Assembly: GCF_007655485.1 (NCBI RefSeq)
Contig: NZ_VJXQ01000001.1
Coordinates: 395,468-459,467 of the forward strand
Length of the DNA: 64,000 nucleotides
Origin: Halobellus captivus
GTDB lineage: Archaea > Halobacteriota > Halobacteria > Halobacteriales > Haloferacaceae
Reading direction: 5' to 3'
Shown here: piece by piece, positions 8,451-32,557 of the stretch
Numbering within the stretch: position 1 is the first letter of the stretch
How the letters are laid out: the number at the start of each line of letters is the position of its first letter
Made by a program: the position numbers and the translations under genes
The notes under the pieces: model-generated
What the model was told of the DNA's origin: nothing
The model's database searches: none
What the model saw: only the letters and a program-made list of their open reading frames with translations

Positions 8451-9065
8451 ATGGACGGCGCTACACCCCGGGTCCTCGTCGTCGAAGACGAGCCCGATTT
8501 GGCGGAACTCTATGCCATCTACCTCTCGGACGTCTACGAGGTGCAAACGGCAACGGATGGAAAAACTGCACTGGAACTGGTCGATGAGGGCACGGACGTC
8601 GTCCTGCTTGACCGCCGAATGCCGGACCTGACCGGCGACGAGGTCCTCGAAGCGATGCGGGCGCGCGGATTGGACACGCAGGTCGCGATGATCACGGCGG
8701 TCGAACCCGACGTCGACATCGTCGAGATGCAGTTCGACGATTACCTGGTCAAACCGGTGACCAAGGACGACCTCCACGGACTCGTCGAGGTGTTGCTCCG
8801 GCGGGCAAACTACGACGAGCGGTCTCAGGAGTTCTTCAGACTCGCCTCGAAGAAGGCGGCGCTGGAATCTTCTCCCGACGTCTCCGTCGACGACGAGACC
8901 GAGTACCGCGAACTGACCGAACGGATGGAAGCGCTTCGGGCCGAAATGGACGACACGCTCGCAGAGTTGAGCGAGTCGGATTTCCGCGACGCATTCGCAT
9001 CCTTCGACGACGTCGAGTTCGACGGCTCGGCGTCGTTCGAGAACGGAACGAGCGGGTCGGAATAG
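8451..9065 (+). CDS. HalX-family response regulator (first of three)
   Basis: 204 aa. The N-terminal receiver domain has the acidic pocket E12-D13, phospho-acceptor D54 (LLDRRMPD), Thr/Ala switch region and K101 (DYLVKPV). The C-terminus (about 115-185) is the HalX domain: helix around ASKKAALES followed by a coiled coil (TERMEALRAEMDDTLAEL). No DNA-binding domain is present, so output is probably protein-protein. Start ATG 8451 is chosen over an in-frame upstream codon because the receiver begins immediately. There is no histidine kinase next door. Confidence 0.92.
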   Translation: MDGATPRVLVVEDEPDLAELYAIYLSDVYEVQTATDGKTALELVDEGTDVVLLDRRMPDLTGDEVLEAMRARGLDTQVAMITAVEPDVDIVEMQFDDYLVKPVTKDDLHGLVEVLLRRANYDERSQEFFRLASKKAALESSPDVSVDDETEYRELTERMEALRAEMDDTLAELSESDFRDAFASFDDVEFDGSASFENGTSGSE

Positions 9066-28423: not shown

Positions 28424-29230
28424 ATGCACACAGGTGGCGAATCTGATACATCGACCGTCGGTGCCACCATGGGCGTTGCGACCGCTCTCGACGAACTGAA
28501 GTCCCGGGGCAGTGCGCTGCTCGTCGTCGGCTCGGTTCCGGAGGAAGTGTACGCTCGGGTTTCCGCGTGTCTCCTCGGGAGTGGCTGTTCGGGCGACCGA
28601 CGCCGACTCGTCGTCGAAGACGGGACCGCTCCCCAGTGGAGATACGAATCCGTCGACAGGTGGACCCCGGAGTGGACACGGATCATCCAGTGCGAAGTCG
28701 ACGCCCGCGGTACGGCAGCCGCGTCCAGCGACGGCGACGGGCGTCCCTCCCCGTTTGAACCCGCCACGAATCAGTCTCTTCGTCCATCGTCTCCCCAGGT
28801 TTCTTCGAATCCCTCGTCTCGAGCCGACGGGCAGGGGCAAACGCGAGAACGTTCGAGAGTGACCGTCGACGGATCGATCTCGGATCTCGGCGTCGAAATC
28901 GGACGGGCAATTCAGCAGTTCGAGGCGATCGCGGGCGGGCTCGAACCGGCGGAGTTACGCGTCGGATTCGACTGCATCGCGACGCTGTTGGCCGAGTACG
29001 ACGAACCAACCGTGTTCCGGTTCCTCCATCTGCTCGCGAACGATGTCAGGACGGCCGACGGGATGGTGCACGTTCGACTCCCCGAACCGTTTGACGCCGA
29101 AACGACGCGACTGTTCGCCCCGCTGTTCGACGGGATCGTCGAACTACGACTCAACGGCAGCGAGCCGCAACAGCGCTGGCATCTCCACGACGGCGACGTC
29201 GTCTCCGAGTGGCTGCCGATCGAGTCCTAA
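28424..29230 (+). CDS. DUF7504 family protein (HTR-like, HalOD2-type)
   Basis: 268 aa. The N-terminus (LDELKSRGSALLVVGSVPEE) and second block (LRVGFDCIATLLAEYDEPTVFRFLHLLANDVRTADGMVHVRLP) match what I recall of haloarchaeal DUF7504 proteins, formerly called HTR-like. They resemble a P-loop-less RecA/KaiC-like fold with a strand-helix pattern but no Walker motif. The middle (about 95-150) is a disordered Ser/Pro-rich linker. Signalling role is assumed only from genome neighbourhoods near HalX and CHAT genes. CHAT gene starts 52 bp downstream and is probably co-transcribed. Confidence 0.65.
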   Translation: MHTGGESDTSTVGATMGVATALDELKSRGSALLVVGSVPEEVYARVSACLLGSGCSGDRRRLVVEDGTAPQWRYESVDRWTPEWTRIIQCEVDARGTAAASSDGDGRPSPFEPATNQSLRPSSPQVSSNPSSRADGQGQTRERSRVTVDGSISDLGVEIGRAIQQFEAIAGGLEPAELRVGFDCIATLLAEYDEPTVFRFLHLLANDVRTADGMVHVRLPEPFDAETTRLFAPLFDGIVELRLNGSEPQQRWHLHDGDVVSEWLPIES

Positions 29231-29282
29231 CGGCGATACGGCACCAGTATGCTTTTTGCTGCGTAAGTGATGTGTTGACACA

Positions 29283-31532
29283 ATGAATGGGCAGGGAGGG
29301 GGACAGAGCCGGGCTGTCGACCCGACCGAACTACCCGGTATCGACCACCTCCAGATCGAGTTCGACGGGTCGTCGGACCGCGGCGGACTCGTCGTTTCCG
29401 ATCCCATCGAGCGCAGTCAGTTCGTGCTCTCCGCGTCCGAGGCAATCCACCCCCGACAGGCGGATCCGGACGCGTTCCGCTTCCCCGCCGACGAGGCCGT
29501 GATGGTTCAGACGGACCAGTTGGACTTAGAGACCGTCGTCTCCGTTTGCGTCCGCGACGGGAACGGCGAGTTGCTGGCGCAGGCGGAGCACTTCGCGGAC
29601 CAGGTGTTTCCCGAGGGGACCTACAGCGTCGAGCTGTTCGCGCCGATCAAACTGTACCTTCGAGTCGACTCCTCGCTCCGCGTGGTTTCGGACGCGACAA
29701 ACACGCGGCTCGAGTTCGGCGATCGAACGAACGTCCTGATCGGGGCGCGATCACACCACAAGCGTCCGGCGGCGACCGTTCGGACGACGGACCGACCTCG
29801 CGATGTGATGCGCGCCGTCTCACTGCTCGGATCGGCGCTGAAAACGACGAGCGTCGAGCGGTCATATCCGACGCTCCGCGGACACCCGCCGTTGATCGAA
29901 CGCGGCGGTCGGTTCGCGGCCCCGGACGGTCTCGAACGGCCGGAGACGGGGATCACGCTGAAGTTGCCTGAGACGCTTCGACACGTCTACGCCGCCGCGC
30001 CGCTGGCGTACTACCTCGGCGCGGCGGTCGTCCCCGGGTCGATGCCGCGAATCGTGACCGACGCGGGGTTCACACACGAACTCGGCGGTCCCCCTGGGTT
30101 CGAGCGCTCCGTCGAGCGCGTGTTGAAGCAGACGTTCTTCCTGGACTGTCTCACCAGAACAGAAGGCTACTACGAGGTCGACCTCCACGAGCGGCGGGCG
30201 CTCGAACCGCGCCTCGGGTTGGACTTCGCGGCGCTGTACGACCGCTCGATCGGCGAGCAGCTGGAAGCCTACCTCGACATCCCGTACGAGCAGATCGAAG
30301 GGCACATCCCCGACTGGAAGCTGACGGCTCACGTCGCACCGACGGCGGCGAACGTGGAGGTGCTCCCGTTCGCCGCGAACGACCTCGCGGTCGTGATGAC
30401 GCCGCAGACGGAGCCGACCGGAGGGTCGACGATACAGGCGAACGCCGTCTCGGATTTCGTCCGTCGTGGCTCGCCGCGATCGGACGACGAGCCGTCACCC
30501 GAGCGCCCCCAGTTAGATTCGGAGCGCGCTGCTCCCCCGGCCCTCGCTTCCGACGACACGTTCACACGGAGCGCGAGCACGCGGAGTTCGGACACCCGCA
30601 GCCAGGAGACCAGGAGCGCACAGCGGGCGTACGTCCAGCCGCCGGAGTCGGACTCGCTGGAACAGGCGTGGCTCGGGGCCGGAATCCCGATCGGCGCGAG
30701 TAAGGCGTCGTTGCAGGCGTATCGGAACCGCCTGTCGCGCGCGCCCATCGACGGCGATATCGGCATCACGGTGGTGTGTAACGACCCGAAGATGGCCGAA
30801 GAGCGTGACGCCGTCGAGGCGGTGTACGGCTCGCGCGAGGAACTCCCCTTCGAGGTCAGGACGCACTACGAACTGACGGTCGAGGAACTCCGCTCGGTGC
30901 TCGCGGAGAAGACGGAGTTCCTCCACTACATCGGTCACATCGACGAGAACGGGTTTCAGTGCCCCGACGGCGCGCTCGACGTCGAGACCATCGACGAGCT
31001 CGGTGTCGACTCGTTCCTCCTCAACGCGTGTCAGTCCTACGAACAGGGGATGGAGCTCATCGAACGCGGGGCGATCGCCGGAATCGTCACGCTGAACGAC
31101 GTCGTCAACAGCGGCGCGGTCGACATCGGTCGGACCCTCGCTCGGCTGTTGAACTACGGATTCCCGATTCGGATCTCCCTCGATATCGCAAAGCGCGACA
31201 GCTACATCGGGAGCGACTACATCGTCGTCGGCGACGGGGGGTTCTGCGTGGCGCAGGTGCAGGCGATGCTCCCGAACATGTGTAAGATCACGCGGACTGA
31301 GTACGGGTTCGACGTCGATTACCGGACCTACCCCGCCGCTGAGTACGAACTCGGAAGTCTCGTCGTTCCGTATCTGCCCGGAAACGAAACGTACTATCTA
31401 TCGTCGGGAACCGCGGACGTATTCGAGTTAACGGAGTCAGAACTAGAACACTTTCTATCGCTGGAGAACGTCCCGGTGTTGGTCAATGGTTCGCTGCGGT
31501 GGAGCGACAATCTGCGAATCGATTCGCTGTAA
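29283..31532 (+). CDS. CHAT-domain (caspase-like) protease homologue
   Basis: 749 aa. The C-terminal third has the CHAT/caspase dyad: His at 552 in FLHYIGHIDENG and Cys at 583 in LLNACQSYEQG, spaced as in CHAT peptidases, followed by IAGIVTLNDVVNSG, the usual AGA-R-x-V segment equivalent. The first ~380 residues form a novel beta-rich region without a motif I recognise. Residues ~385-455 are a disordered Ser/Arg/Thr linker (SASTRSSDTRSQETRSAQ). Both dyad residues being intact argues for activity. Substrates are unknown; haloarchaeal genomes keep it beside DUF7504 and a DUF7503 peptide. TTTTTGCTGCG TATA-like sequence lies upstream near 29251. Confidence 0.75.
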   Translation: MNGQGGGQSRAVDPTELPGIDHLQIEFDGSSDRGGLVVSDPIERSQFVLSASEAIHPRQADPDAFRFPADEAVMVQTDQLDLETVVSVCVRDGNGELLAQAEHFADQVFPEGTYSVELFAPIKLYLRVDSSLRVVSDATNTRLEFGDRTNVLIGARSHHKRPAATVRTTDRPRDVMRAVSLLGSALKTTSVERSYPTLRGHPPLIERGGRFAAPDGLERPETGITLKLPETLRHVYAAAPLAYYLGAAVVPGSMPRIVTDAGFTHELGGPPGFERSVERVLKQTFFLDCLTRTEGYYEVDLHERRALEPRLGLDFAALYDRSIGEQLEAYLDIPYEQIEGHIPDWKLTAHVAPTAANVEVLPFAANDLAVVMTPQTEPTGGSTIQANAVSDFVRRGSPRSDDEPSPERPQLDSERAAPPALASDDTFTRSASTRSSDTRSQETRSAQRAYVQPPESDSLEQAWLGAGIPIGASKASLQAYRNRLSRAPIDGDIGITVVCNDPKMAEERDAVEAVYGSREELPFEVRTHYELTVEELRSVLAEKTEFLHYIGHIDENGFQCPDGALDVETIDELGVDSFLLNACQSYEQGMELIERGAIAGIVTLNDVVNSGAVDIGRTLARLLNYGFPIRISLDIAKRDSYIGSDYIVVGDGGFCVAQVQAMLPNMCKITRTEYGFDVDYRTYPAAEYELGSLVVPYLPGNETYYLSSGTADVFELTESELEHFLSLENVPVLVNGSLRWSDNLRIDSL

Positions 31533-31676
31533 TTAGGGACCGGAAATCGCGCCGTGGTTGCCCGCAGCAACTGCGCCAGCCTGCGAGAGCAGGAGCAGCG
31601 CGGTGAACAGGACGCCCATTGCGCGGGGGTGGTCGGCCAGGTACTGTGCGACAGCGTTGGAGTCATTGTCGGACAT
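31533..31676 (-). CDS. DUF7503-type 47-aa hydrophobic protein
   Basis: 47 aa: a short acidic N-terminus (MSDNDSNAVAQYLADHPR), a hydrophobic segment (AMGVLFTALLLLSQAGAVAAG) and a small tail. It is convergent with the CHAT gene and the two stop codons are directly adjacent with no base between. On the minus strand a TTTTAAA box at about 31699-31706 is 25-30 nt ahead of the ATG. The hydrophobic part could be a membrane segment or a signal peptide; the AAGN end is a possible signal-peptidase site. The pattern matches small DUF7503 proteins as I recall them. Function unknown. Confidence 0.72.
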   Translation of the reverse strand: MSDNDSNAVAQYLADHPRAMGVLFTALLLLSQAGAVAAGNHGAISGP

Positions 31677-31689
31677 GACGATTGGTACC

Positions 31690-31780
31690 TATGCGCGCTT
31701 TAAAATAAATTTTTCTGACACTTTCTGATATGATATTATCTTAATTTAACTCAAAAAATATTGCACAAAAAGGTAGACGG
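31690..31780. other. AT-rich intergenic island
   Basis: About 90 bases with runs of A and T, in sharp contrast with the GC-rich surroundings. It contains the promoter region of the DUF7503 gene and separates it from the HalX gene end. No ORF is seen in it. Confidence 0.8.
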
Positions 31781-31864
31781 CTCCGAGAAGGACTGTCGGT
31801 TGACGCCAGTCGGTAACGCGGAGTTGGGAAGGGAGAGGAGAAGAGCGCGCCGCCGAACCTGTCG

Positions 31865-32464
31865 TTATTCGGAGCGTTCGGCTTCGACATCGATATCGTC
31901 GCCGAGATCGCGGTACATCGCCGTGAAGTCGTGCTCGTCGTCGAACGCGGAGAGAGTGTCGTCGAGCTGGGTGCGAAGTTCACGGACGCGTTCGGTGAGT
32001 CGTTGGTACTCCTCGTGGTCTTCGAGCGTCGCGGCGTCTTTCTCCGACTCCAAGAGGGCCTTTTTCGATGCGAGCGCGAACAGCTCCTGAATCCCGTCGT
32101 CGTAGTGGCTCCGACGGAGCAGGTTCTGGACGGTGTCCTTGAGCGACTCCCGAGAGACCGGTTTCACGAGATAGTCGTCGAAGCCCATCGCGACGATATC
32201 GAAGTCGGGTTCGACGGCGGTGACCATCGCGACGCGGCAGCCGACGTCCCGCTCGCGGATCGCCTCCAAGGCTTCATCGCCGGAGAGGTCCGGCATTCGT
32301 CGGTCGAGCAAGACGACGTCTACCTCGTCGTCCAGCTCTTCGAGCGCCTCGCGACCGCCGTAGGCGACGCGAACGCGATATTCGTCTCTCAACCACGTTG
32401 CGTACAGGTCAGCGAGGTCCGGCTCGTCTTCGACGACGAGTACCATCGGCAGGTCAGCGCTCAT
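31865..32464 (-). CDS. HalX-family response regulator (second of three)
   Basis: 199 aa. Receiver domain with acidic pair E12-D13, D54 (LLDRRMPD) and K101 (DYLVKPVS), then HalX domain (ALASKKALLESEKD followed by coiled coil TERVRELRTQLDDTLSAF). It closely parallels the 8451 paralogue in length and key residues. ATG 32464 is used. A GGTGTT-N6-AACACC palindrome stands just upstream. It lies beside CHAT/DUF7503/DUF7504, suggesting (not proving) a shared signalling circuit. No adjacent kinase. Confidence 0.92.
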   Translation of the reverse strand: MSADLPMVLVVEDEPDLADLYATWLRDEYRVRVAYGGREALEELDDEVDVVLLDRRMPDLSGDEALEAIRERDVGCRVAMVTAVEPDFDIVAMGFDDYLVKPVSRESLKDTVQNLLRRSHYDDGIQELFALASKKALLESEKDAATLEDHEEYQRLTERVRELRTQLDDTLSAFDDEHDFTAMYRDLGDDIDVEAERSE

Positions 32465-32476
32465 TGGTAGGTGTGC

Positions 32477-32494
32477 GGTGTTTTCGGGAACACC
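32477..32494. promoter_or_regulatory. Perfect palindrome upstream of the second HalX gene
   Basis: GGTGTT-TTCGGG-AACACC, 6-bp arms, 13 bases from the HalX start. It could be an operator or a hairpin in the 5' leader. Confidence 0.45.
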
Positions 32495-32557
32495 GATACG
32501 AAGGATTGTCTCGCGGGGGCATATCAAGATACCCCTTACGACGCGGCTGTGGTCCGT

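Follow-up and report, generated by a model that had tools for sequence, protein, structure and literature searches.

The locus considered here raises the question of whether a protease and a very small protein, whose genes end on adjoining nucleotides, belong to one system, and by what means one could act on the other. It lies in a 64,000-nucleotide stretch of the haloarchaeon Halobellus captivus (contig NZ_VJXQ01000001.1, positions 395,468 to 459,467; hereafter the window), where an original prediction made from the DNA letters had proposed a proteolytic signalling or defense module of four genes encoding DUF7504, a CHAT-like protease of 749 amino acids, DUF7503 (47 amino acids) and a HalX regulator. 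The four genes were confirmed at the predicted positions (Table 1), and the stop codons of the CHAT and DUF7503 genes do abut (gap of 0 base pairs, bp), with the qualification that DUF7503 is encoded on the minus strand and the two genes are convergent. The reading developed below, which is given an even chance, is that of a two-gene module in which the convergent gene delivers a short C-terminal peptide as ligand or substrate of the CHAT protease.

The nature of the larger protein had to be settled by structure, as its match to the Pfam CHAT model (PF12770) falls short of the cut-off (E=0.05, 13.5 bits vs 24) and sequence search detected no relative in the PDB. An AlphaFold2 model built on an alignment of 29 sequences reached a mean predicted local distance difference test (pLDDT) of 79.5 and a predicted template modelling score of 0.83, and its best PDB neighbors according to Foldseek were the SAVED-CHAT protease 8tl0 (E=1.7e-6) and separase 5fc3 (E=1.2e-5), two matches that place it in the caspase-hemoglobinase fold, followed by Csx29 (8eey, E=2.7e-4) and gingipains (about 8e-4). 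The CHAT fold covers residues ~455-745, and the His/Cys dyad (H552, C583), which the original prediction had noticed as intact, is invariant in 183 of 183 non-redundant homologues. Because of the structure comparison and the invariant dyad, and with the Pfam score alone being insufficient, the modeled protein is assigned to the CHAT-fold (clan CD) cysteine proteases and its peptidase activity is predicted; the weak PF12770 score is a limit in the sensitivity of the Pfam model rather than the mark of a missing biochemical feature. In the ~350 residues that precede this part, long stretches are conserved as strongly as the catalytic region, including the invariant motifs ALKTTSxERSxPTLRGHPP and FFLDCxTRTEG, and no PDB relative proper to this region occurred among the top Foldseek matches. 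A Pfam scan gave no TPR match in the window proteins P0001 or P0002. The FTRS motif at R429 of the disordered linker was considered as a universal autocleavage site and rejected, since even the broader motif [FYLIMVW][TS][RK][SATG] is present in only 84 of 161 linkers.

Homologues of the CHAT protein were found in 173 of 195 genomes of the order and 125 of 148 of the family, the named relatives being all haloarchaeal with those of Halobellus the nearest, and DUF7503 in 95 of 117 genomes of the order; the presence and absence of both proteins agree closely across genomes. Haloferax volcanii was the only one of 14 control genomes with a DUF7503 above the cut-off, and the CHAT-DUF7503 pair occurs in other Haloferax species as well. 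Outside the order, CHAT homologues were detected in a single further family of the phylum (four genomes), and the four loci examined there carry CHAT without DUF7503. The genome of the window has one CHAT copy and many others several. About nine out of ten haloarchaeal genomes thus encode a protease family that has been overlooked because its scores fall under the cut-off of the CHAT model. It has a near-constant partner of ~45 amino acids, in which the conserved part, amplified in one case, is a peptide of 9-11 residues.

The association of both genes was assessed in a census of 249 non-redundant CHAT loci, which included ~15 divergent paralogues fetched on purpose. DUF7503 is convergent with CHAT in 217 of them, with a median distance between stop codons of 1 bp (5 bp or less in 148), and a derived array of DUF7503 tails, described below, takes its place in nine more. 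Among loci anchored on CHAT an adjacent convergent DUF7503 was present in 30 of 30, and among those anchored on DUF7503 the tail-to-tail arrangement with CHAT was present in 59 of 60. Both checks that the original prediction had called for, on the conservation of the CHAT/DUF7503 neighborhood and of the dyad, came out in its favor, and the tight module of these two genes stands. Two congeners (loci L108 and L109) have lost CHAT and DUF7503 jointly, with CHAT remnants retained in L109 and with DUF7504 and HalX in place at both. The distances among DUF7503 proteins follow those among their CHAT neighbors (mirror tree, r=0.55; maximum of the permutations, 0.14), and among 48 copies in 16 multi-copy genomes the observed pairs gave a value of 0.44, against a mean of 0.09 and a maximum of 0.25 when partners were swapped within genomes in 1000 permutations. 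On this comparative evidence CHAT and DUF7503 are co-inherited as a unit, co-divergence alone not implying physical contact. No third conserved partner emerged from the 60 loci, where the best recurrent neighbor family appeared in only 11 and no recurrent importer was found nearby. As separate observations, the only orphan among the 60 DUF7503-anchored loci is a homologue at positions 4506-4649 of L033, two tandem DUF7503 genes face one CHAT gene in L052 (4350-4697), two neighboring DUF7503 copies likewise occur in genome G089, and L108 and L109 represent natural knock-outs within the genus of the window.

The small gene itself shows the marks of a coding sequence. Differences among nine congeners fall at the three codon positions in the proportion 25/19/121, and a promoter-like element is conserved at a fixed distance from its start codon; these two features mark DUF7503 as an actual gene, kept by purifying selection and equipped with a promoter of its own, and a chance or non-coding open reading frame (ORF) was ruled out. 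A run of five T between the CHAT and DUF7503 stop codons is absent in 156 of 161 loci, so that the two transcripts probably overlap, which may have a regulatory role; where such a run follows CHAT, it usually lies past the entire DUF7503 gene. A direct repeat, TCAGAAAGTGTCAGAAA, located 5' of DUF7503 (window ~31709-31733, minus strand) and overlapping the start of the BRE/TATA element, is common to some relatives and may be an operator. The protein conforms to the consensus YLxx[HN]P[RK]MxGxLFTxxLLLxQxGxVAA followed by ~8 variable residues and a final GP, the latter found in 196 of 217 proteins. The hydrophobic part with VAA fits a (-3,-1) signal-peptidase pattern in 190 of 192 matching sequences, a single membrane helix being the alternative reading. 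In Halobellus, the tail shows 8.6 pairwise non-synonymous differences per codon, compared with 2.6 for the core and 0 for the final GP.

The tail is set apart most clearly in the genus Haloplanus. At nine of 12 species loci the position of DUF7503 is taken by a protein that lacks the hydrophobic segment and keeps the same site, the same -4 gap, a similar upstream sequence and the N-terminus (MSExDSGTV..) and tail of DUF7503, the tail being repeated 2, 4, 5, 7, 7, 10, 13 and 14 times in eight of the nine arrays. The repeated unit is A[AD]GNxxxISGP (or xVSGP), joined by [MYFS][TN] linkers. Units are identical within each array and different between species; codon differences between copies within arrays comprise 995 synonymous vs 19 non-synonymous changes, and in L281 13 copies with 13 distinct DNA sequences encode one peptide. 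Array-bearing genomes have no other DUF7503 above the cut-off, and arrays are absent from those congeners that carry the membrane form. Both states are interspersed on the CHAT tree (membrane L286 with array L290, support 1.0; array L284 with membrane L289, 0.97), therefore the two forms appear from the phylogeny to have been interconverted, or exchanged, more than once. A search for the GP-xx-ADGN junction in 392 genomes detected no clustered arrays outside Haloplanus, and a degenerate tail pattern had no other match in four genomes checked. Since the helix was lost while the tail was kept and multiplied, the simplest reading of these sequences is that selection preserves the tail peptide and not the membrane helix, which would be one of two modes of presentation. 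Ribosome arrest at Gly-Pro-stop, as in SecM or TnaC, was set aside as it leaves the internal repeated GP units unexplained.

On the two-gene reading, proteolysis would release the tail (GNHGAISGP in the window) from its precursor. The cut would follow the VAA motif in the ordinary form, whereas the Haloplanus arrays would be cut at their repeated [Y/F/M][T/N]AD-GN junction, and the released peptide would engage the CHAT protein so as to switch its activity or report on it. Delivery or tethering would be the task of the hydrophobic segment, for which tandem repetition can substitute, DUF7504 would be an optional regulatory subunit, and the tight convergence lacking a terminator between the genes would probably make their expression mutually interfering. 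The array junctions ([YFM][TN]AD-GN, with S also at the first position; VTAD, TTAD, LTAD, TVAD, YTAD or ITAD-GN in the first ones) look like caspase tetrapeptides followed by a small residue at P1'. Extracts of H. volcanii were reported to have a very high caspase-like activity that hydrolyzes LEVD, VEID and IETD substrates, for which a lack of gene homologues was noted (PMC3615174). As H. volcanii has DUF7503 and other Haloferax species have the CHAT-DUF7503 pair, the CHAT family provides a concrete candidate for this activity, and Haloferax is a genetically tractable model. The caspase-like junctions and this activity together suggest an Asp-specific CHAT protease that would liberate GNxxxxSGP peptides. 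A more ambitious proposal, held tentatively and regarded as somewhat unlikely, is that DUF7503 and the arrays are precursors of archaeal signaling peptides (~GNxxxxSGP) processed and/or perceived by their dedicated CHAT protease, forming a communication or self-recognition circuit with a multi-copy precursor like that of alpha-factor, in which an Asp-specific CHAT could explain the caspase-like activity of Haloferax. Identity of the units within a genome and difference between species would be expected of a specific signal.

Several observations weigh against the peptide reading in its different forms. Neither form of the partner was present at 23 of the 249 CHAT loci, ~15 of which are divergent paralogues; ~10% of DUF7503 tails do not end in GP, many of them finishing in TI[S/D/R/G/V]; and co-divergence could stem from linked inheritance alone. 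The Asp of the junctions may merely be an acidic halophile substitution. The array leaders are hydrophilic by inspection and bear no N-terminal secretion signal, unlike the signal-peptide-like ordinary form, which speaks for a role inside the cell or for export by some other route, the latter being what a secreted peptide would need.

The main rival is a scaffold acting by induced proximity, in which the tail is never released and works as a docking motif, so that oligomers of the membrane helix, or the soluble repeats, cluster and activate CHAT as adaptors do with caspases. It accounts for the conservation of the helix (Q, G, F and P each over 90%) and for the coincidence of helix loss with tail multiplication, and an activated filament has been described for SAVED-CHAT, the best structural match. 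Conservation would be expected of a docking motif, but the tail outpaces the core in Halobellus evolution and differs between Haloplanus species while being identical inside each array, and one species has two copies only; this explanation is deemed unlikely.

A role in anti-viral defense through regulated proteolysis, as the original prediction had contemplated, fares less well. CHAT proteases serve defense in other systems, and the accumulation of up to eight DUF7503 copies per genome, as well as the presence of the CHAT gene on 25 plasmid records including megaplasmids, would suit such a function. On the other side, no PADLOC model matches CHAT, DUF7503 or DUF7504, nearly all haloarchaea carry the module, the same locus is retained across most of the genus, and no homologue was found in phage collections or IMG/VR, a result that also led to a viral or phage origin being discarded; defense is considered improbable here.

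The suggestion that DUF7503 is the partner of CHAT holds, in a form that gives its membrane segment less weight than first supposed. Protease-effector pairs of the gasdermin or holin kind are known in bacteria, and the single hydrophobic segment of DUF7503 is preceded by a conserved HP[RK], a candidate cleavage site from which CHAT could produce a toxic membrane peptide. Such a membrane effector is quite improbable in view of the nine Haloplanus loci, which lack both the hydrophobic segment and HP[RK] and keep CHAT intact: the segment is dispensable there and the tail is not. Least probable is an arrangement similar to type I toxin-antitoxin systems, where the 3' end of the CHAT mRNA would silence a small hydrophobic toxin, since the tail-to-tail genes with a near-zero gap, the rarity of T-runs between them and the small hydrophobic product that favor it are outweighed by the invariant dyad, which places the CHAT protein itself under selection, by the non-hydrophobic arrays, and by the loss of DUF7503 along with CHAT instead of its persistence.

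The two remaining genes stand at different distances from the module. DUF7504 was modeled with a pLDDT of 85.4 and matched KaiC CI in Foldseek (E=4e-8); it has in common with the KaiC-family ATPases the RecA/KaiC CI fold and differs in the Walker A motif, which is replaced (GSVPEEV), hence ATP hydrolysis is probably absent. Its inclusion in the module was only partly borne out: the gene lies directly upstream of CHAT and in the same direction in 76 of 161 loci and stays in the two congeners where CHAT and DUF7503 were lost, so that it was rejected as an obligatory partner and may be an optional, dispensable regulatory subunit. No literature was found on DUF7504 or on CHAT in haloarchaea. HalX adjoins the module in the genus of the window only; its proposed membership was rejected and it is a bystander at this locus. 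The palindrome said to lie at its start is real, although placed just 5' of the start codon and not at it (inverted repeat CGGTGTT-TTCGGG-AACACCG, window 32476-32495), and is possibly autoregulatory. A second HalX-type regulator with ~57% identity to this one is encoded at 8460-9020 (plus strand) and a further HalX match starts at ~63770, close to the end of the window.

Table 1. Features of the CHAT-DUF7503 locus, in positions of the window.
Feature	Position	Strand	Basis
DUF7504	28424-29230	+	Pfam PF24336, E=1e-51, 176 bits vs cut-off 27
CHAT-fold cysteine protease (predicted), 749 amino acids	29283-31532	+	AlphaFold2 model, Foldseek, invariant dyad
Conserved N-terminal region, residues 22-376 (beta-rich 26-168, then alpha/beta 172-375)	29346-30410	+	AlphaFold2 model, Foldseek
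Disordered linker, residues 380-446, with FTRS motif at R429 (candidate autocleavage site)	30420-30620	+	pLDDT<50
Catalytic His552 (HYIGH)	30936-30938	+	183/183 conserved
Catalytic Cys583 (LLNAC)	31029-31031	+	183/183 conserved
DUF7503, 47 amino acids, putative small precursor/partner	31533-31676	-	Pfam PF24335, E=8e-22, 77 bits vs cut-off 27
DUF7503 C-terminal tail GNHGAISGP, proposed functional unit, ends -GP	31536-31562	-	Tail conservation and Haloplanus amplification
DUF7503 hydrophobic segment AMGVLFTALLLLSQAGAVAA, signal-peptide-like or transmembrane	31563-31622	-	Column conservation
BRE/TATA-type promoter of DUF7503, -40 to -28 from ATG	31704-31716	-	Positional A/T bias at fixed distance, 161 loci
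HalX response regulator	31865-32464	-	PF08663, E=2e-26

Small convergent genes of other kinds were observed opposite divergent CHAT paralogues. At seven loci of another family (L205-L209, L211 and L212), CHAT has no DUF7503 and faces a convergent small ORF that ends in [AS]KR[VI]S[TS]Y[GR]GP, with an N-terminal part unrelated to DUF7503. The last ten codons differ at the three codon positions in the proportion 28/6/106, and this bias toward third positions suggests that the ORF is likely a real gene. Another type, ending in HSTSTGP, is present at L213-L214. Peptides with a C-terminal GP, encoded opposite CHAT, may then be more widespread. The divergent CHAT of L205 and L216-L219 is also followed by a co-directional gene (NPSxxxxxELVSxLD...VRLLAxERxLKDxMDDFxVAS..), possibly for a TbsP-like regulator.

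Compared with known systems, the Halobellus protein has in common with SAVED-CHAT, TPR-CHAT/Csx29, separase and gingipains the fold at residues ~455-745 and the His/Cys dyad, and differs from all of them in its own N-terminal domain, with no SAVED or TPR match. Craspase (Csx29 and its dedicated substrate Csx30) likewise joins a CHAT protease to a genetically linked dedicated partner; here the partner has ~45 amino acids, is convergently encoded and is not Csx30, and its cleavage is only predicted. The bacterial gasdermins also place a caspase-like protease beside a small membrane-associated protein, whereas DUF7503 matches no gasdermin model and its membrane segment is dispensable. Precursors of the Arbitrium, Phr and SHP type consist of a short leader with a hydrophobic segment and a C-terminal peptide of 6-9 residues that varies except at its last positions, and their genes adjoin that of the receptor. 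DUF7503 has the same layout of leader and variable peptide next to a putative receptor, which differs in being a CHAT protease and not a TPR-type regulator, with no recurrent importer in the neighborhood. To our knowledge there is no established case of peptide signaling in archaea, and the literature searched provided neither such an example nor a description of CHAT combined with a convergent peptide gene. The Haloplanus arrays, in which alone several identical core peptides under purifying selection were found, resemble yeast alpha-factor and the Kex2-processed repeat proteins of fungi, which are tandem-repeat peptide precursors (PMC7329392), in their identical core peptides, short linkers and copy number that varies between species. 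They differ in being archaeal, in having no secretion signal or dibasic Kex2 sites, and in that cleavage at their junctions is only a candidate. The architecture, which agrees as a whole with none of these systems, appears to be new: a CHAT protease almost always accompanied by a convergent peptide gene, the tail of which has been tandemly amplified in one genus.

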